In this document: one piece after another, positions 5,832 through 19,526 of the stretch
Layout of the letters: each line of letters starts with the position of its first letter
How positions within the stretch are numbered: position 1 is the first letter of the stretch
DNA from: a virus
Strand: one strand, 5' to 3'
DNA: 31,456 bases
Virus record (IMG/VR): IMGVR_UViG_3300025127_000141
Coordinates: 1-31,456 of that record
The notes under the pieces: model-generated
The model's database searches: none
The model's input: only the letters and a program-made list of their open reading frames with translations
What the model was told of the DNA's origin: nothing
Made by a program: the position numbers and the translations under genes

Positions 5832-8800
5832 CTAGTTCTCGTCTGCCCTATAGGTATTTCCTCTTGGGAACAGCAATCCAACTCTAGGTCTCTTATCTTT
5901 TAATAATTCTCTACTGGTTCTGAGACCAGCAATTGTACCCGTCTCTGGTGCAGGTGGAGAGTTATTAGTCATGTACGTAATTTCTGCAAGACCTGTCCCT
6001 GATGGTGTTTCTGCTGGTACTGTTTCTTCATCAACTTCTTCAAAGAACCTAGGATAAATTTGACCAAACCCAAGTAATGCTGTAGGTCTACCAGGAGAAA
6101 CAAAAACAGTTGGGTTAAGATATGTGAGCGTATAATTTATAACTCCTGGGCGAGGTCCCTTAGTCCACAGTGAAGTATGTTGACTTCCAAAAATTTTATT
6201 AAGTCCTTGATCACGCATATCTGCACTACTTAGTGTTAAGGTGTAGTTAAGAGTGGGTGGTGGTGTTTGATCTGTCCAATCAGAAGTATGTTGACTTCCA
6301 AAAAGTTTATTGAGTGCTGGATCACGCATTTGAACACCAGTATATGCGAAGGTATGATTACCATATGGTTTTGTTCCGTTCGACGCAGTAATATTATTAA
6401 CATTCTGATTACCTGCTCCAAATAAAGTTCCCCAGTTTCCATCAATAGCAGGATCAACTTTCCAATACCTATCAAGATCGGATTGAGCCGAAGAACCAAA
6501 CTTAAGATTTCCTGGAACTGCTGGAGAACCACCAGTAAATGATCTTATATTATTAACTCCACTACCTGAGAGAGTAAAACTATATGTTTGTGCGTTACCT
6601 GTAGAAGTATCTGTTACTGTTACGTTGAAAGATGAGTCTTGAAAATAACTACTGGTAGAAGGTGATTCAAGATATCCTGTGGTTGTATTGAATGTTATAT
6701 TAGTACCAATTAAACTATCACCAGTAATTGTCCATGGTCCTACAGAAAGACTTTCTCCACCAACAGCAACAGCATTTGAATACCCTAGATTAATACTAAT
6801 ATTAGAGTTATGTGCAATAGGACTTTGACTAATTGTTCCTTGTCCTTGATCCCATGTGTATTGTTTCATCACAAAAGGGAACATAATACCTCTATTCACA
6901 GGAGGAGTAAAAGTTTTAGTTACATAATTATAGTACCCAGCATCAACGGGAAGACCAGTACCAATATTTAAACCAGTATTATTAGCTTCTTCATAATCGG
7001 TTCTAGTAGTTAAAGATACACTTCCATAGTGAGGACCATCAGTTTCTTGGAATGTACCAGTAACGATACCCATAGAAAATGGTCCAGCACCACCAACATT
7101 AACATTGCTAGATGTAAATACATTACTGGTACCAAGATCAATTGTTAAAGTATTTGCGACAGCATCTTCAGCGACGATTCCCCACCATTGTCTAAGTGCT
7201 TCAGTTAAATTAATATTACCTACAATTGTTGCTGGTGGATAAGGTGTTCTGATTTGTACTTTTTTGTTTATATTTCCTAAAAAATAACTAGCATCTGCTG
7301 GGTTAAACTTAACTACAATCTGAGAAGATCCATTACTAGTTGTAAATGGATCAGAGACAAGTTCTCTTTCATCCATTCCATTGATAGGATAGTTAGTATT
7401 TCTACCAGAATCTGTCCTGAATCCTGGGTTAGGAGTGTTAACCCAGTCTTTTGCTTTTTGTGGTAACCCAGTGGTAGTGTAATCATAATTAAAATAGTCC
7501 AACCATACTGCTAAAACACCAGCAACAATAGGTGTTGAGAAAGAAGTTCCACTAATATTAGAGTACCATGTACTCCACGATGCATCTAAGTAACTCGTTG
7601 TGGTTGTCCAGTCATACTTAGGACATTCAACTCTAGTTCCAGGAGCATAAACATCTACAGCGTCTCCGTAGTTAGAAAAATCAGCATAGGTATCGTTCCA
7701 TTCAGTAGCACCAACTACAACTTTAGGTTGATCGTAGTCAACAGCATTAAATCTATAATCTATTGGTCCTCCAGTCCTACTTCCAGGTTTCATTTTTGCT
7801 TGAAGAGGACCTAAGAAAGTATCACTTGCTGATAAAAATCCATTACCAGCAGAGCGACAAATAATAATATTATGTGACCTACAAACAGTGCTTTCAATCT
7901 CATCTAAAATTTCTATATCATTGTATGGATAGTCTGTACCCACATCATTTAATTCAATGATGGGTGTGCCTGCACTAGGTTGTGTAGCACCAAAAGAAGC
8001 ATTGATAATTGATGGTCTATTGTTATTTTTATAGTAACCACTATTAGTAACATGATGATTTATGACTGCTTGATATGCTGCAGCAATATCAGAAAATGTT
8101 CCAGCTAACTGAGAATTGAATGCTGCGAGTGAATAGATACGTGCTTTCTTAGCAACTCCATATCTGTATCCAGCTGCAAGAACTGCACAAGCAGTTCCAT
8201 GTCCGTTAGTATCTTCATTAATATTTGGAGTAAAGGCAGAAGCACCATAATGACTCAAAGAATATACTCTATAGTCTCCTTGTTCTGATGCACCATCTAA
8301 ATCAGCTCTATTATCTGGATGAAATAATTCTGGATGAAGTGCTGCTCCTGCACCAGTAGGTCTACTAGCACCTCTAACTCCACTATCAATCACATAGATA
8401 TCAATACCATCACCATCTCCTCCATCCCAACTGAAAGTACCACCACCAATTGTTAATGCAGTTCCTCTACCATTCTTACTAATTCTATTCAAATGCCACG
8501 TATTATAAGACGGGGAAATGGTCATGTATCTATCTGGAGATGTAGCATACCTTCCCAAACCAGGTGAACTAGGAGTGTAGAAAAATAATTTATCAGCTGA
8601 TGCACCAGAAAAAACTATATCAACACTATTCGTACCATAAGTAACACCTTGTGTGTATAAAGTACCACCTTTATGAGTACCATCTTGTGTCTCAGAAAAT
8701 TTAAGAGGGAAACTGGACATCGAAGCATCAGTTACATCGAATTTTATTGTCCATCCATTTGGGAAACCAGTTATTACATTTGGAGATCTATACCAAGGAG

Positions 8801-9176
8801 CGCTACCATTTGGAGAAAATTCATATAAGTTTTGTCCGTTGACTTGAGTCACACGAACATATTGAGTTGCAGTATAAGTGTTTACAGCAAACTTTGTATT
8901 ATCAAGAGGATCTAATACAGCATTATCTACCTGAATAGAATTAGATTCTTCCTCTATGGGATCTAATTTAATAATTGTATCCCAGAAACATGTGTGACCA
9001 CAACCATGAACATCATTTTTTACTTGGTCAATATTTTCATCAGGAATTTGAAAAATTAATATACGAAAACTTTCAAGACTCTCTTGCAACTGAGCATAAG
9101 AAAGTCTCGCTTCAATAGAAGCACGAATGTCTTCTAGAGGAGAATTACCGCATGCTTTTACTATTAACCTTTTCAT
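5832..9176 (-). CDS. Fibre-like virion protein with subtilisin (S8) protease domain (1114 aa)
   Basis: Residues about 255-575 form a peptidase S8 domain with the full triad: Asp264 (YVIDSG), His326 (NGHGTAC) and Ser545 (SGTSFSTPIVAG), with Asn445 (SAGNG) as the likely oxyanion residue. Residues 1-75 have the strand-helix pattern of an I9-like propeptide (tentative). Residues about 104-208 look like a cupredoxin-like beta domain without copper ligands. After the protease come beta-rich segments, an Ig-like unit (about 790-872) and two 37-residue repeats (949-1022) sharing LNK.FGSQHTS. There is no Sec signal. It lies at the end of the tail-fibre block, so a tail-associated protease acting on the host surface or on fibre maturation is inferred. 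Start ATG 9176, 11 bases after the upstream stop. Confidence 0.9.
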   Translation of the reverse strand: MKRLIVKACGNSPLEDIRASIEARLSYAQLQESLESFRILIFQIPDENIDQVKNDVHGCGHTCFWDTIIKLDPIEEESNSIQVDNAVLDPLDNTKFAVNTYTATQYVRVTQVNGQNLYEFSPNGSAPWYRSPNVITGFPNGWTIKFDVTDASMSSFPLKFSETQDGTHKGGTLYTQGVTYGTNSVDIVFSGASADKLFFYTPSSPGLGRYATSPDRYMTISPSYNTWHLNRISKNGRGTALTIGGGTFSWDGGDGDGIDIYVIDSGVRGASRPTGAGAALHPELFHPDNRADLDGASEQGDYRVYSLSHYGASAFTPNINEDTNGHGTACAVLAAGYRYGVAKKARIYSLAAFNSQLAGTFSDIAAAYQAVINHHVTNSGYYKNNNRPSIINASFGATQPSAGTPIIELNDVGTDYPYNDIEILDEIESTVCRSHNIIICRSAGNGFLSASDTFLGPLQAKMKPGSRTGGPIDYRFNAVDYDQPKVVVGATEWNDTYADFSNYGDAVDVYAPGTRVECPKYDWTTTTSYLDASWSTWYSNISGTSFSTPIVAGVLAVWLDYFNYDYTTTGLPQKAKDWVNTPNPGFRTDSGRNTNYPINGMDERELVSDPFTTSNGSSQIVVKFNPADASYFLGNINKKVQIRTPYPPATIVGNINLTEALRQWWGIVAEDAVANTLTIDLGTSNVFTSSNVNVGGAGPFSMGIVTGTFQETDGPHYGSVSLTTRTDYEEANNTGLNIGTGLPVDAGYYNYVTKTFTPPVNRGIMFPFVMKQYTWDQGQGTISQSPIAHNSNISINLGYSNAVAVGGESLSVGPWTITGDSLIGTNITFNTTTGYLESPSTSSYFQDSSFNVTVTDTSTGNAQTYSFTLSGSGVNNIRSFTGGSPAVPGNLKFGSSAQSDLDRYWKVDPAIDGNWGTLFGAGNQNVNNITASNGTKPYGNHTFAYTGVQMRDPALNKLFGSQHTSDWTDQTPPPTLNYTLTLSSADMRDQGLNKIFGSQHTSLWTKGPRPGVINYTLTYLNPTVFVSPGRPTALLGFGQIYPRFFEEVDEETVPAETPSGTGLAEITYMTNNSPPAPETGTIAGLRTSRELLKDKRPRVGLLFPRGNTYRADEN
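6111..6332 (-). repeat. Two 111-bp tandem repeats in the S8-protease gene
   Basis: Two neighbouring 111-bp units encode 37-residue repeats starting MRDPALNKLFGSQHTS and MRDQGLNKIFGSQHTS. They are clearly similar at DNA level (shared TTGACTTCCAAAAA stretch) but not identical. A more diverged relative (DLDRYWKV...NWGTLFGAG) may precede them. Confidence 0.75.
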
Positions 9177-9187
9177 CTTACCCCCAA

Positions 9188-11272
9188 TTAGGTGGTTCTA
9201 GCACAGAATAGAATTCCTCTAGTTCTATCTGTTTGATTATATGATCCTGTAATTATAGTGTAGATTTCTTGATTACCAACAGTAATTGTATCACCCTGTT
9301 GAATGTTTGCTGATGGAGTAGCGACATCAAAATCAATCATAGCAAAATCATTAGGTAGATAGTATGGTACTGGAGCCATTTTTATACTTAAAGGAAGACC
9401 TTTAATAACTGCGTTAAAGTTAGTACTATCGGGCATTATTTCTTTAGAGTAACTATTATTATAGTGACCACCCACACCTCTATAAGTATGATCTAAATTA
9501 GATCTGGTGTAGATATTAACGTAACCAGTAGTTCCTTCTTGGGAAGTTAATGATGTAGATCCATAAGTTGTACTCATAGAATAAGGTCCTCGACCTGTTT
9601 CGTAAGTTGAATCAGTTCTAGAGGGTAAGAATCCATACTCAGCAGATCTCTTAGAAAAACCACTTGAAACCGAGTTACCTGAGTCAAATTGACCAGCAAG
9701 AAAAGATTCAAATGATACGTAAGGTTGTGTTGGGTTAGCATCACCAGGTATGTGGATGATAGTAACACCACCTAAAAACAATTGATTGTAATCAAATAAA
9801 CTACTTGTATAATCATGAACAAACCAAGTCATAAAAGTATTATCAGCTAAGTTAGTTGATGATAAGTTAGGTTGCTTGAAAGAATAAACAACAAATTTTG
9901 GATCAAGTCCAGACTGATATGATATAAGATCTAGAGAGTATGCATTGTATGCATTCCTATCTGCGATGGGTTCTAGATGATCATCATAATTAGCGGTAGA
10001 AAAATGTGAAGGACTATATGGGGTTGAAGTACCAGACCAACTATCATTAAGACGATATGAACCTGGGGAACCATACTTATCAAGATAAGGAGATCCTTTG
10101 AATCGAGCATCACCCAAATAATTTGCTATATCATACTGAGTTACATCAGTTGTACCTGCATCATTGTAATGAAAATCATGACCTTTAGCTTGACGTGCGT
10201 TACCATCAATAGTGTATGAAGTAGGGAGTGTTGTTGTTTGTGGAGCGTAACCAGATCCTGTAATAATATTAATTTCTACTTGACCATTAACATCATCATT
10301 AAATTGATATGCTTGATAAGTAATTCCATATTTTTTATTTTCCTGAACTTCCCTTCTACATACACCCCAAGGAGAAACGGCTGCTTGTCTATTTTGCTTA
10401 TCAAAAAATGCGTTTGTTTGACCAAAAGTTGTAGGAACAATATTAGACTGTCCTGCAGCAACTACAGTAATTGTGTTGTAATTATTGTAAGCATATTCTC
10501 CTCTAAGATAATATGTTCCTGCTTGTCCTGGAGAAGGTTTCCATTTAAGATATTTACTATCTTCACTATAACTGGCGCCAGTATATTGTCTAGCACCTTG
10601 ATTAACAACATTCTTAACCGACATTCCCCACTCGAACTCTTGTTCATATCCTGTGTTTCCTAAGGTAGAAGTTGTGAACATATCATACCATAAAAGATAA
10701 GTCTCATGATCAGTTGGAACTTTCAATAAGAGAGTATCGCCTTCAGCAATAGTAATATTTCCTGCAGAAGTATTTTTATTGGTACTGACTGCACCATTAG
10801 CATCAATACCAGTCAGGTTACCAGAAGAATCATACTCACATGTATATGTACTACCACCCTGAGCAACTCCTTCAATGTAAACAGTTACTTGAATATCCTG
10901 TACACCATTAGAACCATTACCACCAAAATCCAAATCATTTAATGTTAAAATATCTCCATTTGCATATCCAGAACCAGGACGATTAGGGTTTACAGATCTT
11001 ACTTTTCCATTATATACACCTACCTGAAAGGTAGCACCAGTTCCACTCCCTGTCCAAGCAGTTGGAGCAACATCATAGTAATAATCCCAAGTAGCAGATG
11101 TATTGCGTTGAGTATTTTCTCCACCATAAGTAAAAGATTTAACACCAGCAACCAACCCAGTAACAGGACCCATGTGTGCTCCTACTGTAGTGTGTGCATC
11201 TTCTATCAAGTCGATAACATCACTTCTTGACCACCCAATTGGTTTACTATGTACAGTTCTTGTTACAGCCAT
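9188..11272 (-). CDS. Beta-rich virion structural protein (694 aa)
   Basis: No named family recognised. It is an Asn-, Tyr-, Ser- and Gly-rich protein without membrane segments or signal peptide. A segment near residues 88-140 (VRSVNPNRPGSGYANGD) has the 'GSGY..GD' pattern common in phage fibre and baseplate-like proteins. Position between a fibre gene (6-base gap) and the S8-protease gene (11-base gap), with no promoter between, places it in the same late transcript. Most likely a tail or fibre-associated structural protein. The C-terminus (YTIITGSYNQTDRTRGILFCARTT) is well ordered in prediction, arguing that the gene is full length. Confidence 0.8.
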   Translation of the reverse strand: MAVTRTVHSKPIGWSRSDVIDLIEDAHTTVGAHMGPVTGLVAGVKSFTYGGENTQRNTSATWDYYYDVAPTAWTGSGTGATFQVGVYNGKVRSVNPNRPGSGYANGDILTLNDLDFGGNGSNGVQDIQVTVYIEGVAQGGSTYTCEYDSSGNLTGIDANGAVSTNKNTSAGNITIAEGDTLLLKVPTDHETYLLWYDMFTTSTLGNTGYEQEFEWGMSVKNVVNQGARQYTGASYSEDSKYLKWKPSPGQAGTYYLRGEYAYNNYNTITVVAAGQSNIVPTTFGQTNAFFDKQNRQAAVSPWGVCRREVQENKKYGITYQAYQFNDDVNGQVEINIITGSGYAPQTTTLPTSYTIDGNARQAKGHDFHYNDAGTTDVTQYDIANYLGDARFKGSPYLDKYGSPGSYRLNDSWSGTSTPYSPSHFSTANYDDHLEPIADRNAYNAYSLDLISYQSGLDPKFVVYSFKQPNLSSTNLADNTFMTWFVHDYTSSLFDYNQLFLGGVTIIHIPGDANPTQPYVSFESFLAGQFDSGNSVSSGFSKRSAEYGFLPSRTDSTYETGRGPYSMSTTYGSTSLTSQEGTTGYVNIYTRSNLDHTYRGVGGHYNNSYSKEIMPDSTNFNAVIKGLPLSIKMAPVPYYLPNDFAMIDFDVATPSANIQQGDTITVGNQEIYTIITGSYNQTDRTRGILFCARTT

Positions 11273-11278
11273 CTTCTA

Positions 11279-13840
11279 TTACGCCTCCAGTTGCAGTATT
11301 GTGAGAGTTGCGGTGATTGTTGTGTTTCCCGTTGTAAGATTTTCCACAGTCAAATAAATGTTATCACTAACAGGTGATTCAGTATTTCCACCAACGGTAA
11401 ATGGAGTAATAATTTGTGCTTGATTCTGACCTGTAGTAATCACTTCAGCAATTACACCAGATCCAGGATCAGGGTCTTCACCAGAAGTTCTACCTGTATC
11501 ATTAGTCCTTGCTTGGCTACTACTATATATGCGACACCATGCCGCATCAGATAAGTTAATTTGAATTAATGCATATGATTTAAACCCAGTTATATCTAAC
11601 GTATCAAAAGTTCCAGGTGCTAAAAGAATTGTAGTTCCACTTACAGTTGTTCTACTGGAGAGAGTACCTCCTCCCCCTCCTCCTCCACCGCCAGTAGCAC
11701 TAAGGATACCAGCAGCAGTAATAGAAAGACCTGATCCAACAATTACACCACCCAACTGAGATGATGTAGCAGGAACAATATTAGTAACACCTGAAGTTTG
11801 ATCTACATTAATTGAAGGACCATTTTTAATACCACCAAGAGTAGTTGGTGATGCGATAGAAATTGCAGATGAGTTAGTGCTGAGAACTCCAGAAGAATCA
11901 ATAGCTAATCCATTTCCTACCTTAACTCCTCCAAGAACTGTAGAAGATGCAGTTGGAAGAGTTACAGTAGCAATTCCAGTGCTACTATCAATCGCTAATC
12001 CAGAACCAATCTTAATACCACCTAATATAGTAGCAGAAGCAACAGGAAGAGATTGGACATTGGAACTAAGAACACCAGTATTACTGACGGAAAGACCAGC
12101 TCCAATAATTACACCACCTAAAGTAGCACCTGTTGCTGCGGGTAATGTATATCCACTAGGAGCAGCACTGATCTGTCCGTTTGATGGATCTATAGTAATA
12201 CTAGTTCCGTCTACTCTAACTCCACCTAATATAGTAGTGGTAGCTTGAGGTAGTGTATATCCACTAGGAGCAGCACTGATCTGTCCGTTTGATGGATCTA
12301 TAGTAATACTAGTTCCGTCTACTCTAACTCCACCTAATATAGTAGTGGTAGCTTGAGGTAGTGTATAGAAAGAAGTAGGTTTGTTGAGAATTTGTGTTAA
12401 TCCAGAAGAAGAATTCCAATCAGCATTTACTGGTTGAACACTATTGAAAGTAATTCTATTGTTAGCAGGTTCATGTGTTAATGTCGTACCACCTAGAGCA
12501 AGAATCTGATAACTAGATGTTGTACCATCCGTAGCGGTAAGAGTAACTGTAGCTTCGTTACTTGCTAAGGTAGTTCCTACAGAAAGAGTATAGTTATTTA
12601 AGTTGTAATAATTAGTTCCATCGTTTGTCCACTCCCACTTATCAGTAGATTCATTCCAACGTAATACTGTATCGGTTTCAGTACCTCTATCAATTCTGAT
12701 TGATCCATTTTGTGATGGAGATCCTGTCGTACCGTCATTAATAATAATCTCATTGTTAGATACGCTGAGAGTATTTACGTTGGTGTTAGTTGTTGTTCCT
12801 TGTACAAGTAAATTACCTGTGATTGTAAGGTCACCAATAGTTAAATTATTGGATGTAGTATTACCTCTACCTGTAATAGTATCAAGAGTATCAGACTCAG
12901 AAGTTAGATATGCTGGAGTAAAATTTTCCCACTTTGATGTAGATGAGTTATACTTAATCAGATCACCTGTAACCAAACTCGATATTGTTACATCAGTTAG
13001 ATCAGGCAATGCAACTTGAGTTAGATATCCAGCAGTACCATGATCACCCCATCCATATGCAGCATTCCATTCTGATAATTTTGCTAGTGTGATACTACCA
13101 GCAGGAGAAGCAGTAAATACAGGGTCAGTTTCTGCTGCTGTAGCAGCATTTCCTGGTTCCCATTTACCAGCAGTAGAATCCCAGATAAGTGCTTGTCCGT
13201 TTGTTGGTGCCGCTGTTGCTGTATCAACATCATTAAAAGTATTGATAGAAATATTAGCGAGATCTCCAACAACTAGGTATCCTTGAGTACTATGGTCTCC
13301 CCAGTTGTATGCTGCATTCCATTGAGTAGATCCAGAAGATCCATTCCCTGTAGTAATACCTCCAGTAAATGTTGCATCAGTTGGATTAGTAAAGTTAGCA
13401 ATACCACCTACAGTTAAGTTTGTTATTGATATACTAGGGTTACCAGATAATCCAGTAGCACTACCAGAAATATCTGCACCAGCGATGGTTGATGTAGATG
13501 GATTATATGTAAGAGTATTGTCTGCAAATGTTTCTACGTTACCAGTAGCAGCAGATCCAAGAATTAAAGGTAGTTGAAGATTATCAGTTGCCTTTGTTGT
13601 TACGTTAATAACATTATTTAATTCATTCAACCATTCAGATGTACCATCATATCTTATGACTTGATCTGTTGTTAGAGAAGTTAGTGATACATCTGTTAAA
13701 TCACCAAGAGCAGACGCTCCACCTCCTCCACCACCAGAAGGAGCAAGAGATACCCAAGAGGTTCCGTCCCACTCCCAGGTAATACCTGCTGCGGTGTGTG
13801 TAGCTCCTGGTGAAGGATTCGATGGGAATGTAATAGCCAT
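11279..13840 (-). CDS. Modular tail-fibre protein (853 aa)
   Basis: The N-terminus (MAITFPSNPSPGATHT, then ITWEWDGTSWV) and a Gly6 linker are typical of cyanophage fibres. The body has two WNAAYxWGDHxxxGYL units, a GNLLVQGTTT-type beta segment, a 'TGSPSQNGSIRIDRG...WNESTDKWEW' module shared with the next fibre, and about seven repeats of the pattern LP.AT...LGGV..G.GL.I...G, two of them identical. A Gly9 linker precedes a C-terminal domain of about 135 residues (from TLSSRTTVSG) that is probably the receptor-contacting tip. It sits 12 bases after the 1683-residue fibre gene and probably shares its late transcript. Confidence 0.88.
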   Translation of the reverse strand: MAITFPSNPSPGATHTAAGITWEWDGTSWVSLAPSGGGGGGASALGDLTDVSLTSLTTDQVIRYDGTSEWLNELNNVINVTTKATDNLQLPLILGSAATGNVETFADNTLTYNPSTSTIAGADISGSATGLSGNPSISITNLTVGGIANFTNPTDATFTGGITTGNGSSGSTQWNAAYNWGDHSTQGYLVVGDLANISINTFNDVDTATAAPTNGQALIWDSTAGKWEPGNAATAAETDPVFTASPAGSITLAKLSEWNAAYGWGDHGTAGYLTQVALPDLTDVTISSLVTGDLIKYNSSTSKWENFTPAYLTSESDTLDTITGRGNTTSNNLTIGDLTITGNLLVQGTTTNTNVNTLSVSNNEIIINDGTTGSPSQNGSIRIDRGTETDTVLRWNESTDKWEWTNDGTNYYNLNNYTLSVGTTLASNEATVTLTATDGTTSSYQILALGGTTLTHEPANNRITFNSVQPVNADWNSSSGLTQILNKPTSFYTLPQATTTILGGVRVDGTSITIDPSNGQISAAPSGYTLPQATTTILGGVRVDGTSITIDPSNGQISAAPSGYTLPAATGATLGGVIIGAGLSVSNTGVLSSNVQSLPVASATILGGIKIGSGLAIDSSTGIATVTLPTASSTVLGGVKVGNGLAIDSSGVLSTNSSAISIASPTTLGGIKNGPSINVDQTSGVTNIVPATSSQLGGVIVGSGLSITAAGILSATGGGGGGGGGTLSSRTTVSGTTILLAPGTFDTLDITGFKSYALIQINLSDAAWCRIYSSSQARTNDTGRTSGEDPDPGSGVIAEVITTGQNQAQIITPFTVGGNTESPVSDNIYLTVENLTTGNTTITATLTILQLEA
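12146..12361. repeat. Perfect tandem duplication, 2 x 108 bp, in the 853-aa fibre gene
   Basis: Bases 12146-12253 and 12254-12361 appear identical, encoding two copies of a 36-residue fibre repeat (TLPQATTTILGGVRVDGTS...). The surrounding repeats of the same family are much more diverged. Identity without drift points to a recent duplication, and the 36-codon unit keeps the frame. Confidence 0.9.
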
Positions 13841-13852
13841 AAGGGTATTTAT

Positions 13853-16800
13853 TTAAGTCTTAATAATGAAAACCAAAGCATAATATGGTGGTAAGTTGTT
13901 GTGTGCTTGTCCACCACCTTCGTTACTCATACTAAATGTATCAGCAGGATAACCACCAGCACCACCATATCCAATCGAGGTAGAACCTCCACCTGGAAAA
14001 TATTTCTTATTATCGAATGTTGTATCATGTTTATGTGCTGGCATTTGATCTGTTGTTAAGGTCACTGTTGATTCACCACCAGTAGCACCAGCATTATAAG
14101 TGGAACCAGCACCAACAATAAACCTATCTCTCAGATCGGGAACGTATTGACCAACGATTGCTGCTAAAGCACCGTATGAACCAGTTGATTGTCCATCACA
14201 CAATAACCAACCTGCAGGTGCTGTTGATCCACCATACATTATAATAGCTCCAACAGGAGCAGCTTCAGTAACACGAGCATCTGCTACCCATGCGCTAGTA
14301 GATGCCGACCATCTTACAACGTCTCCCTCAGCAAAACCACTACTTTGTGCAGTTACAACTTCTTTGCCTTCATAGGTAAGCACACCATTAGGAGCACCAA
14401 GAGAGAATGATTGTGGAGGATTCTGATCGTTAGTAAACTTAATACTATTATCACTTAAGAATAGGTGTCTTACTTTTTTCTCTGCTGTTCCAATATCATA
14501 AGTAGCATTTGATGTAGGTACAATATGGAAATCATATTGACCCATCAAACTCTCGACATCACTATCACCATATCCAGCACCAAGATCAGAATAAGTAGTA
14601 CCATCATTAGTGAACTCCCACTTATCTGAAGTTTCATTCCAACGAATTTCTACATTAGTGGATGTACCTCTTTCAATTGTGAGTCCACCATTTTGTGATG
14701 GTGTACCTGTCTCATCACTGTTAAGAGTAAGATTAGAATCTCCAATATTTACAGTGTTACTATTGACTGTGGTTGTCGTTCCGTTGACTGTTAGATTGTT
14801 ACATGTAAAGTCTCCAACTGTTGCTGCTAGAGCACTTGTATTGCCTGCTGTTAATACTTCATTTAGTGTTGGTGCAGTACCAGTTAAATCGGGAGCCATT
14901 TCCCATGAAGCACCATTATATTTTAAAATATATCCATTCTGAGCATTAGAAACTGCATCTACATCACTAAGATCATTAAGAGCAAGTGACTGTTGGGCAT
15001 TTAGAACATTTATTGTTCCAAACATCGCAGGATGTGCTGTACATTGATAGTACAATGTATCAGGTGCATTCATTGGAACAACAAATATTAAATCTGTATT
15101 ATTAGCTGCATCGTTATTTGTTACACCACTATTATATTGTGTACCACCACCTGCTTGAGCAGTAGTCGATTGAATTCTAAAAGGATGTCCACCTGTTCTA
15201 TTTTTAAAGACATATGTCTGACCTCTTATGAGGTATAGAGTTGGATCCTCAGCGTTTGTAGGGAATCCTTCGCCAGCAAATACATAATGAGTCGCTGCTG
15301 TTTGTGTAAGAGTCCATGAGATTACTGGTTGTCCAGGTATATCGTCAAGATTATTTGCTACCCACTGACTTGTTGTACCATCATACTGTAATACATCTCC
15401 AGTAGTTATAGTTCCAGTGGTTACATCAGTTAGAGCATTAAGAGTTGTTGCTCCACCACCGCCTCCTCCAGATACGGTAGACCATGTGACGCCACCCGAT
15501 CCATTACTGGTCAAGACCTGTCCACTAGTCCCGTTGGAAGTTGGGTAAGTTAAACCACCAGCAACTAATCCATCAGTGTATACAAATCTCCATTTCTTAG
15601 TTGTGCTACCAAGATCAAATGTTCCATCAGTAAATGGTAGTGCAGTTCCATTTAAACTCATTCCTGCAAACGTAGGAGAACTAGTTGAATCTAAACTAAA
15701 CTGTGTTCCTACTAGATTGATACCAGTTCCAGCAGTGTATGTTGTATCAGTATCAACCTGTGCTACCCAAGCATAGTCAGTACCGTTCCAACTTAAAATT
15801 TGATTTGATGTAGCACCACCAGTGTTAAGGTGAGAATCTACATCACCAACTGTAAAGGATGTACCACTACCGCCACCACCTCCAACAGGATTGGCATCAA
15901 CCCATACAGTAGAGTAGAGAATTTTTAATCTTCCTTTATCTGATTCCCACCATAAGTCACCTGAAGTAGGGTTAGCAGGAGGGTTATCAGATATGGTTAC
16001 ATTAGCACCACCTCCACCAGAAGGAGCAGCAACAAACTCAAGTGCTGTTCCACCAGAGTTAACTGCAATAAATTGTCCAGGAGTTCCTAACGAAGATGCA
16101 GTATCACTTAGTCCTACAAAAGTAGTAGATCCAGTAGTTCCTGTTTGATCTGCTACCCAAACAAAATCAGTACCATTCCAACTAAGAATTTGACCTGCTG
16201 AAGCACTAGAAGTATTGAGGTGTGTGCTTACATCAGAGTCACCATAAGATGAGGTAACACCATTAGTCCAGTTACTTCCATTGTAATAAAGAACCTGACC
16301 TGAACTTGGAGATGAAATAGTAACATCAGTAAGATGATCTATAGCAGTTACAGTTGATCCACCACTATTACCTGCTGACCATACAATATTTCCTGTGCCA
16401 TCACTTGTTAAAACTTGACCTGATGTCCCGTTGGTATTTGGATAGGTTAAACCTCCAGCAGTTAATTGTCCAACTGAGATATTGTTGATAGTGGTATTAC
16501 CTCTAGTTGTTACACTATCAAGAGTATCTGTTTCAGATGTTAAGTATCCTGCAGAAGAATGATCACCCCAACTATACGCTAAATTCCAATTTGCTTTATC
16601 TGTATTTGTTGCTTGTAGATATCCAACAATAGAATGATCACCCCAATTATATGCTGTATTCCAATTAGAAATATTTGTACTAGTAATATTTGCTGCGGGT
16701 GATGCAGAAAATATTGGATCTGTTTCACTTGAAATAAATGAACTGATATCGGGTGGAGTAAATGTAAGTAGGTTTTGTGCAGAGTTAAATGTTAAACTAC

Positions 16801-18904
16801 CAGAACCAGAGGGGATAGAGTTGTTGTTAACAACCATCGAACTGTTCTGTTGTATACCACCACCAGCTGTAACAGTAGTAGGAACCCATCTATTACCATT
16901 AGAACTAAAACTTAGAACTTGTCCATCACCAGGGTGTCCTGCTTGAACATCTAATAGATCTCCAAGTTGTGTGATACCACCTATGGGAATCCACTCACCG
17001 TCTTGATACATTTCAAGTCGGTTAGAAACATTATTATAAATTACAGATCCGTTTAGAACATTTAGATAATCACGTTCACTAATAGTTTTACTTGGGAACT
17101 TGATGTAATCTAGTGCTTGTAGTTCTGTAATTGTTGCACCAGTAGATACAATATTATCTGATACAAGATATCCTTTAAGTGTTAACTCACCTTGAATAGG
17201 TTCAAATTTAATTTTATCTGAACCAGCAAGTCCTCCATTGTTATTATATTGTATTGAGTAGTCACTACCACCAGCAACAATACCACCAGAACCTGCTGCA
17301 CCTGTGTTTGGTGCTGTAGAAATATTTGTAATTCTACCACTAGGATCAACAGATATAACAGGAATGACTCCAGAACTACCATAAACTCCGTTAGGAACTC
17401 CAGTTAAGTTTGATAGTTGTGCTCCAGAACCAGTGTATGTTGTAGCGTTAACAGTACCAGTAACATCAATACCAGTAAAAGTAGGTATTGCACTTGCGCT
17501 AAGGTCTTGAGCAACAGAAAACTCTAGTCTTGTTCCAGTTCTTGTTAGAGTAACACCAGTACCAGCAGATAAAACTACCTCTTCAGAATTTCCAAGATTA
17601 TCTGTTAAACGAATACTTTTTCTATTTGGTTGCTGTTGATTTTCTACAGATAGATTGTATGTTGTGTTATCAGCATTGATGGTTAGTCTTTTCTGGACAT
17701 TATCTAAACTGACTAAAGCACTACCAGTACCAATAAATCTAACAATATCATTAGAGTCTACAGATGTGGTAACACTGTTATCTCCAATACTCCATCCATT
17801 ATATGTTGGAGGTATAGAAGCCCAAGATGTATTTTGTCCATCGGTTGTTAGATACTTACTAGAGTTTGCTGCTTGTGATGGTAAGAATGCATTCAAAGCA
17901 TCATTAGCATTAGTTTGACCTGTACCACCATATGCAATACCGATAGTTTGTGCTTCCCATCTACCAGCAGATAGAACACCAACAGATTCTAAACTTGATG
18001 CTCTGATAATATTTCCAAGTCCTGTGCTGGTAATAACTTCATCACCATTGATTTTATAAGTTCTTCCACTAGCAAGATCAAAATGCTCAGAAGAAGTCCA
18101 TGAGTCATTAGTATTACTCCACAGAATAGTATGTGGAGAATCACCTTTAAGTCTAATTCCACCACCATCTGCTACAGAATCTGTAGGTATTACAACATCA
18201 TTTAAGTTAATAAATTTGTCTTGAGTAGATACAGTAACTGTATTACTTGTAGTGGTTGTACCTTGTACAATTAAATTTCCACTAATAGTTACTTGCTGGA
18301 ATGTAACAGGATCATTTGGACCTACAGGTTGTCCAATCTTAATCTTGTTATCACCAGTGATTGTAACACCACTCTCTCCAGTGTATGTTGTATTGTCGTC
18401 GTTAACATTGATGGTAAATGTTCTACCAGACTGGGTGATTGTCGCTGCACCAGTTCCGATAAGATTAAGATCACCATCGGTATAATTCTGTCCGTTAACA
18501 CCTAATCGTGTAACAGTATTTGTATCAGTGAATGAAGAATCTATAGTAATTCTTCCACCACTTCTTGTAAGAGAAACATTATTGCCTGCTACAAGAACAA
18601 CATCGGTGTATCCACTTCCAGATCCACCAGCAGACAATCTAATTACTTTATCAGTAGCAGGGTTAGCACCATCAATAGTGCTAAGTGTGTAAGTAGTATT
18701 GTTATCTGTGAGGGGTACATTGCTCCAACCCACTCCAGTAGTAGTCCTAGAAAGAACTTGACCAGTCAATCCAGTGTCACCATTTAAAGAGATGATACCC
18801 TCAACTACCAAAGATTTAGTAGAGGGAACTCGAAGACCTTCTACTGCTAAAGTAGGTCCACTATTGCTTTGATTGATGAGTTCATCTACTCTAATTTTAG
18901 ACAT
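13853..18904 (-). CDS. Giant modular tail fibre with cupredoxin-like and collar domains (1683 aa)
   Basis: The N-terminus (MSKIRVDELINQ) matches that of the 1032-residue fibre (MSRARVDQIVNQ), suggesting a shared virion-attachment motif. The long beta-rich shaft includes WGDHS..GYL units (about residues 740-790) and a GDLWWESDKGRLKI motif (about 980-995). Residues about 1193-1300 form a cupredoxin-like domain with His1240, Cys1288, His1291 and Met1294 (QCTAHPAM). A segment close to the 853-residue fibre (TGTPSQNGGLTIERG) follows. From about residue 1550 a tail-collar domain begins (APAGWLLCDGQS, VPDLRDRFIVGAG, QMPAHKHD) and runs to the end (YYALVFIIKT). A GATAAATA late box lies 28 bases upstream, with GGGGAAG before the ATG. 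Likely a principal host-adhesion fibre. Confidence 0.9.
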   Translation of the reverse strand: MSKIRVDELINQSNSGPTLAVEGLRVPSTKSLVVEGIISLNGDTGLTGQVLSRTTTGVGWSNVPLTDNNTTYTLSTIDGANPATDKVIRLSAGGSGSGYTDVVLVAGNNVSLTRSGGRITIDSSFTDTNTVTRLGVNGQNYTDGDLNLIGTGAATITQSGRTFTINVNDDNTTYTGESGVTITGDNKIKIGQPVGPNDPVTFQQVTISGNLIVQGTTTTSNTVTVSTQDKFINLNDVVIPTDSVADGGGIRLKGDSPHTILWSNTNDSWTSSEHFDLASGRTYKINGDEVITSTGLGNIIRASSLESVGVLSAGRWEAQTIGIAYGGTGQTNANDALNAFLPSQAANSSKYLTTDGQNTSWASIPPTYNGWSIGDNSVTTSVDSNDIVRFIGTGSALVSLDNVQKRLTINADNTTYNLSVENQQQPNRKSIRLTDNLGNSEEVVLSAGTGVTLTRTGTRLEFSVAQDLSASAIPTFTGIDVTGTVNATTYTGSGAQLSNLTGVPNGVYGSSGVIPVISVDPSGRITNISTAPNTGAAGSGGIVAGGSDYSIQYNNNGGLAGSDKIKFEPIQGELTLKGYLVSDNIVSTGATITELQALDYIKFPSKTISERDYLNVLNGSVIYNNVSNRLEMYQDGEWIPIGGITQLGDLLDVQAGHPGDGQVLSFSSNGNRWVPTTVTAGGGIQQNSSMVVNNNSIPSGSGSLTFNSAQNLLTFTPPDISSFISSETDPIFSASPAANITSTNISNWNTAYNWGDHSIVGYLQATNTDKANWNLAYSWGDHSSAGYLTSETDTLDSVTTRGNTTINNISVGQLTAGGLTYPNTNGTSGQVLTSDGTGNIVWSAGNSGGSTVTAIDHLTDVTISSPSSGQVLYYNGSNWTNGVTSSYGDSDVSTHLNTSSASAGQILSWNGTDFVWVADQTGTTGSTTFVGLSDTASSLGTPGQFIAVNSGGTALEFVAAPSGGGGANVTISDNPPANPTSGDLWWESDKGRLKILYSTVWVDANPVGGGGGSGTSFTVGDVDSHLNTGGATSNQILSWNGTDYAWVAQVDTDTTYTAGTGINLVGTQFSLDSTSSPTFAGMSLNGTALPFTDGTFDLGSTTKKWRFVYTDGLVAGGLTYPTSNGTSGQVLTSNGSGGVTWSTVSGGGGGGATTLNALTDVTTGTITTGDVLQYDGTTSQWVANNLDDIPGQPVISWTLTQTAATHYVFAGEGFPTNAEDPTLYLIRGQTYVFKNRTGGHPFRIQSTTAQAGGGTQYNSGVTNNDAANNTDLIFVVPMNAPDTLYYQCTAHPAMFGTINVLNAQQSLALNDLSDVDAVSNAQNGYILKYNGASWEMAPDLTGTAPTLNEVLTAGNTSALAATVGDFTCNNLTVNGTTTTVNSNTVNIGDSNLTLNSDETGTPSQNGGLTIERGTSTNVEIRWNETSDKWEFTNDGTTYSDLGAGYGDSDVESLMGQYDFHIVPTSNATYDIGTAEKKVRHLFLSDNSIKFTNDQNPPQSFSLGAPNGVLTYEGKEVVTAQSSGFAEGDVVRWSASTSAWVADARVTEAAPVGAIIMYGGSTAPAGWLLCDGQSTGSYGALAAIVGQYVPDLRDRFIVGAGSTYNAGATGGESTVTLTTDQMPAHKHDTTFDNKKYFPGGGSTSIGYGGAGGYPADTFSMSNEGGGQAHNNLPPYYALVFIIKT

Positions 18905-18941: not shown

Positions 18942-19526
18942 TTAGGGATAATAATGATCGTATAGTTTCTTGCTAGTTTCACAGTTACGTTTAAACTTAG
19001 TGAAAATATCAACAACCATATCATTCGCATTTGTTGGTGGTTCAGTCCATGAATCTATGTTTATGGGAGCATCATATTGTTGTGGAAGATCCCTAACCCA
19101 TTGTCTCCACGTTTCCCAACCAGTATCATCTAAGTTACTCAATAGAATATAAGGATCAGATGATGCTAACATCTCATCCCTAGATTTTTTAGCCCTTGTA
19201 CTCCAAGTAATATAATTTCGCATGTAATCTTCATCATCTAGTCTCTGTAACTCTGCATCCTGTTCTTCAACAGCTTTTTCTGCTTCGTTCCAAAGTCTTT
19301 CCGCTAAGGCACCGAAAGTATTTATCTCATCCTGAGTGAGAGATCTATGTTCTCCAGTGCTTAATTCTGTATCAGATTCAGCAGGAGCAATTTCATCGTT
19401 ATAACGAATACACCAATACTTCTCATCAATTTCTTCTAAGAAATTTCTCATTCCATAGTATTTTGTAGAGTTCCACAGAACTTGACCATCATAGTCAGTC
19501 CTACCTCTCATAAGAAAAAATTTCAT
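18942..19526 (-). CDS. Probable tail-fibre assembly chaperone (194 aa)
   Basis: The C-terminal half carries the pattern R..ML..SD.......DTGWETWRQWVRDLPQQ followed by SWTEPP. This matches the layout of phage tail assembly chaperones (Phage_tail_APC type), where an R..LLA.TDW segment leads to a helix with YRQALRDIP.Q. The middle is a long charged helix (LWNEAEKAVEEQDAELQRL). Position supports it: between two large fibre genes, where T4-like phages place fibre-folding helpers. The ATG at 19526 overlaps the upstream stop as ATGA, so it is translationally coupled. The family match is by pattern recognition only. Confidence 0.65.
   Translation of the reverse strand: MKFFLMRGRTDYDGQVLWNSTKYYGMRNFLEEIDEKYWCIRYNDEIAPAESDTELSTGEHRSLTQDEINTFGALAERLWNEAEKAVEEQDAELQRLDDEDYMRNYITWSTRAKKSRDEMLASSDPYILLSNLDDTGWETWRQWVRDLPQQYDAPINIDSWTEPPTNANDMVVDIFTKFKRNCETSKKLYDHYYP

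Follow-up and report, generated by a model that had tools for sequence, protein, structure and literature searches.

The window considered here is the whole stretch of 31,456 nucleotides that was analysed (IMG/VR record IMGVR_UViG_3300025127_000141). It is from a T4-like cyanophage that encodes NrdA, NrdB, a primase and a transaldolase, and it is closest to Synechococcus myoviruses. The question that this locus raises is what a subtilisin-like (S8) protease, built into a long protein at the end of a tail-fibre block, does for such a phage: whether it is carried on the virion, and what it cuts. Our literature searches found no paper in which a protease belongs to the adhesion apparatus of a phage, and no report of what a cyanophage fibre-block S8 protein cuts. 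Overall, we favour a tail-borne pro-subtilase that would trim host surface proteins at adsorption, a reading to which we assign a probability of roughly one half.

A predicted protease with an intact active site closes the fibre block

The earlier note had described a 1114-residue ORF closing a tail-fibre block. The ORF is present, on the minus strand, which that note left out; no plus-strand ORF of at least 80 aa lies inside 5832-9176, and the neighbouring gene assignments bear out the position. The genes that precede it on this strand encode a virion structural protein, a fibre assembly protein, a pair of fibre proteins and the product of the neighbour orf9188. Downstream come small proteins, one of which occurs in about 400 cyanophage records; those of the cluster from ORF 5401 to ORF 3778 have apparent membrane segments.

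18942..19526, minus: tail fibre assembly protein (PHROG 4912)
13853..18904, minus: large tail fibre/collar protein; contains a cupredoxin-like segment too (H, C, H, M present)
11279..13840, minus: tail fibre-like protein (PHROG 9729)
9188..11272, minus: upstream neighbour (orf9188), 694 aa; homologue SSCSM1_232 labelled virion protein; adjoins S8 in L006-L008
5832..9176, minus: S8 protease-fibre ORF, 1114 aa, ATG at 9176 (ORF list and homologues)

The catalytic residues had also been numbered correctly: Asp264 (in YVIDSG), His326 (NGHGT), the oxyanion Asn445 (SAGNG) and Ser545 (SGTSFSTP) are each invariant, 84/84, in an alignment of 84 sequences at about 40% identity, and distant S8 proteins, compared in a further alignment, keep all four as well. 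Pfam Peptidase_S8 matches residues 255-566 far beyond chance (E=1.9e-27; 96.8 bits against a curated cut-off of 21.8), and phmmer against solved structures matches proteinase K-family chains by sequence with E down to 2e-11. The structure-prediction check agrees for the S8 region, in that Foldseek leads from the AlphaFold model to subtilases with probability 1.0, at a mean pLDDT of only 62 and with the S8-domain loops poorly modelled; the best matches include the pro-domain-bearing subtilases ProN-Tk-SP and unprocessed pro-subtilisin E. We consider it well supported, on alignment and model together, that the window protein is a subtilase (S8, proteinase K-like) with an intact active site, and a predicted protease. 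Proteinase K and aqualysin (S8A) are among its best solved-structure relatives in both sequence and fold; enzymes of that family are secreted and lack fibre domains. In agreement with the earlier note, the sequence of the window protein shows no hydrophobic signal at its N-terminus.

Domains around the protease

8961..9176, minus: I9-like N-terminal domain (putative propeptide), residues 1-72 (predicted topology, Foldseek pro-subtilisin matches)
8511..8879, minus: cupredoxin-fold insert, residues 100-222; copper ligands lost (F156, T201, S204, L207) (alignment, structure model)
7452..8498, minus: Peptidase_S8 domain, residues 227-575 (Pfam, phmmer, alignment, Foldseek)
8385..8387, minus: catalytic Asp264
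8199..8201, minus: catalytic His326
7842..7844, minus: oxyanion-hole Asn445
7542..7544, minus: catalytic Ser545
6558..7394, minus: beta-rich and Ig-like region, residues 595-873, common to P-HM1/P-HM2/MED4-213 (homology, model)
5835..6557, minus: clade-specific C-terminal tail, residues 874-1114, with two copies of the short repeat MRD..LNK.FGSQHTS.WT (tail otherwise in L006-L008 only)
6048..6101, minus: C-terminal motif copy 1, SPGRPTALLGFGQIYPR (motif scan)
5862..5900, minus: C-terminal motif copy 2, RPRVGLLFPR (motif scan)

The N-terminal region had been likened to an I9 propeptide, and here fold and sequence part ways. In the AlphaFold model, residues 2-65 are predicted to run beta-alpha-beta-beta-alpha-beta, which is the I9 topology, at the I9 position before S8. 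At the same time, Pfam I9 has no match in the window protein, sub-threshold Pfam I9 matches (E 0.04-0.09) occur only in two distant cyanophage S8 proteins, and a profile of the N-terminal domain, run against the PDB and against other cyanophage pro-regions, found nothing significant. We therefore claim the resemblance by fold only, and on the model an I9-like propeptide is plausible. Between the I9-like domain and the cupredoxin, the linker (about 72-100) varies and has little predicted order; the junction from cupredoxin to S8, by contrast, is conserved. It is in the linker that we infer a self-cleavage site.

The insert at residues ~100-222, overlooked in the earlier note, has a cupredoxin fold. 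It is modelled at pLDDT 83 and matches nitrite reductase and two-domain laccase (E ~0.004-0.01, probability 0.85-0.98), and Pfam Copper-bind is found in 23/43 scanned relatives. The H, C, H, M copper ligands are kept in 75 of the 84 aligned sequences and lost in the window protein. The tail fibre ORF 13853-18904 has a cupredoxin-like segment at window positions 14999-15283 (minus) in which the ligands H, C, H, M are apparently present (GHPF...YYQCTAHPAMFG), and other cyanophage fibre or virion proteins match the cupredoxin model by fold, in short matches of about the size of the insert; for these reasons the insert is probably a module common to cyanophage fibres. Literature searches on cupredoxins in cyanophage fibres yielded no relevant paper.

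Farther on, residues 636-1114 match, among named phages, only P-HM1, P-HM2 and MED4-213, up to about residue 874, and residues 874-1114 are essentially unmodelled (pLDDT <50).

Recurrence in cyanophage fibre blocks

An alignment-based scan of IMG/VR gave 147 related stretches, 80 of which were kept; a single-sequence scan of viral_contigs found no relative. Two contexts recur. In the P-HM type, gp13 lies directly downstream of S8 at about 54 of the loci retrieved, and complete proteins have ~1680-1970 aa; in the window type (L006-L008, ~60% identical), orf9188 lies upstream and the orf5401 cluster downstream, and the protein has ~1120 aa with a tail of its own. At two loci, L037 and L014, the S8 reading frame is in two pieces, either a genuine disruption or an artefact of assembly.

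Among named phages, the closest relatives are those in P-HM1, P-HM2 and MED4-213 (PHM1_104, PHM2_106 and CPMG_00018; PHROG 27200), which have the same order of I9-like, cupredoxin, S8 and Ig-like regions, an intact triad, and an identity of about 40% across residues 1-874, made up of ~40-43% over residues 1-644 and weaker similarity to 874. They differ in their length of ~1830 aa, extra Ig-like repeats, a different C-terminus, copper ligands that are kept and a gene placed before gp13; the window protein in turn has a 240-residue tail that they lack. In S-BM3, SBM3_00202 (L004, 11623-19569; annotated peptidase S8) has an S8 domain 34-42% identical to the window's and likewise sits in the fibre block with an orf9188 homologue nearby, but it has 2648 aa, a cupredoxin-like segment within S8, a YHYH domain and Ig-like repeats. 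That segment separates the catalytic His from the oxyanion Asn and leaves the triad intact; the YHYH domain lies farther on. More distant are the T4-GC 292 or PHROG 9158-type proteins (P-SSM2_297, S-SSM7_232, ACG-2014 types, S-H38, S-CREM1, S-RSM4, S-CAM4); like the window protein they place S8 in a fibre/baseplate block and have an N-terminal I9-like region, several with the short C-terminal motif, and unlike it they show only 21-24% identity in the S8 alignment and have no cupredoxin between pro-region and S8.

S8 genes have genes for fibre or baseplate proteins as neighbours in P-SSM2, S-SSM7, S-H38, S-CREM1, S-RSM4, S-CAM4, S-WAM2, ACG-2014h/i and Sf-FR1, and in S-RSM4, S-CAM4, S-WAM2 and ACG-2014h/i the gene lies after talC, in the block that corresponds to this one. 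Sf-CH1b shares the block and retains the orf5401-type cluster with no detectable S8, so that the S8 gene is dispensable at this locus. A cellular origin was considered and rejected: a genome scan gave one 41% match, probably viral, and otherwise distant S8 domains at <=29%. The 41% relative (L096, 1004-3604) comes from a contig of 7 kb that had been binned into a Dehalococcoidia MAG. Separately, a 2140-aa virion structural protein of S-TIM54 (L114, 4060-10482) matches S8 by tblastn, yet no GTS serine motif was seen in it; judged from its sequence, it may be a degenerate protease.

The subtilisin identity stands, and the protease as such is less new than the earlier note implied. In Sullivan et al. 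2010 (PMC3037559), the genes unique to P-HM1/P-HM2 already include an S8 peptidase, in a cluster named T4-GC518 in the paper and T4-GC 519 in the records, and PF00082 is noted in the P-SSM2 and S-SSM7 records; literature searches on virion subtilisins gave nothing on point beyond that paper. This analysis adds that S8 recurs from fibre block to fibre block, and it describes the insert with the cupredoxin fold, the variant of the window type and the motif at the C-terminus. Since S8 recurs in the fibre blocks of divergent cyanophages, what it does is a general question rather than the curiosity of one contig.

Virion location and role

We believe that the window protein is quite probably on the virion, as had been proposed, and the support is indirect: the same-strand position in the fibre block, the recurrence of S8 there, the partner domains of cyanophage S8 proteins (lectin, Ig-like, cupredoxin) and the label of one relative. 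The label concerns that one distant relative, S-SCSM1_228, annotated as baseplate wedge subunit (virion protein) in its record. It resembles the window protein in its N-terminal pro-like region and its S8 domain with intact motifs, and differs in its C-terminal laminin-G lectin domains and its distant, PHROG 9158-type S8. For S-SCSM1, 45 virion proteins were reported by mass spectrometry (PMC9602691). By our own count its record has 48 virion-labelled proteins; ORF91, 213 and 214 match, and the labels take in the three non-structural proteins named in the paper while leaving out several predicted structural genes. Because the labels track the published list, the virion label appears to mark mass-spectrometry detection. 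The main text on S-CREM1 reports only 14 virion proteins and names no peptidase, and we found no published virion proteomics for the window phage, P-HM1 or P-HM2.

Consider, then, the course that an adsorption protease would take. The precursor would be made in the cytosol, inactive, with the I9-like domain covering the active site, and the beta/Ig-like region and C-terminal tail would tether it to the tail or fibres. It would cut itself in the variable, disordered linker at ~72-100, the cupredoxin-fold domain remaining in place as a cap. Once the virion is free, the subtilase would clip cyanobacterial cell-surface proteins during adsorption. The odds lean slightly towards self-cleavage of the precursor, and fall slightly short of even for a host surface protein as the target. 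Subtilases commonly need calcium, and so seawater calcium could, at a guess, switch the protease on after release. What favours the host-surface role, in our view, is the accessory nature of the gene and the fusion of S8 to domains of adhesion type; its dispensability is to be expected of an accessory to adhesion and not of a factor needed for assembly.

The main rival, which we think unlikely, is a maturation protease that cuts itself and neighbouring fibre or baseplate proteins in assembly and has no host-surface role. The S8 gene does adjoin the genes of the would-be substrates, the I9-like domain of the model would predict self-cleavage at least, and the motif RP..G..[FY]PR, present in S8 proteins and two non-S8 proteins of the block, might serve all of them as a site of cleavage or docking. 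Nonetheless, the gene is sporadic and missing from a phage with the same fibre block, unlike core assembly proteases, and fusion of S8 to lectin and Ig-like domains of adhesion type also speaks against this alternative. Distinctly less probable is an exit enzyme or other non-virion late protease, released at lysis or attacking host proteins in the infected cell. The small proteins with apparent membrane segments that come after S8 would suit it, but their cluster is also found in Sf-CH1b, which has no S8 in this position; one distant S8 relative bears a virion-protein label, and Ig-like and cupredoxin regions of this size fit a structural role. That the S8 fold is an inactive relic kept as mere scaffold is very improbable, for although the cupredoxin of the window protein, its ligands lost and its fold kept, indicates that loss of function with a retained fold occurs here, the Asp, His, Asn and Ser are invariant 84/84 and persist in the distant aligned S8 proteins.

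If the subtilase is virion-borne and active, it would point to host surface proteins as a barrier to abundant marine viruses or as their receptor. Sugar-cutting depolymerases borne on phage tails are well known. A broader and more tentative reading, which we consider rather doubtful, is that T4-like cyanophages carry interchangeable subtilase modules on adhesion domains, docked via RP..G..[FY]PR, as a recurrent tail accessory that shapes which host surfaces can be infected; such modules would be the proteolytic counterparts of polysaccharide-degrading tailspikes.

The motif itself, which could be a docking tag or a cleavage site, is common to divergent cyanophage S8 proteins, and occurs also at loci L086, L090, L113, L115-L119 and L122. 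The form G.[LIVTMF][FY]PR was counted 18 times in 1892 ORFs against 2.45 expected by shuffling, an enrichment that serves as a guide only, since the choice of loci was not independent of S8. Fourteen of these occurrences are in S8 proteins and two look like chance. No BLAST extension of the motif was obtained, and it is absent from the S8 proteins of S-SSM7, S-T4 and Phosso. It is present in three further S8 proteins, those of Sf-FR1, ACG-2014h and S-WAM2, and its two non-S8 carriers are a small protein in the S-BM3 fibre block and an S-SCSM1 fibre protein, of which it forms the very C-terminus.
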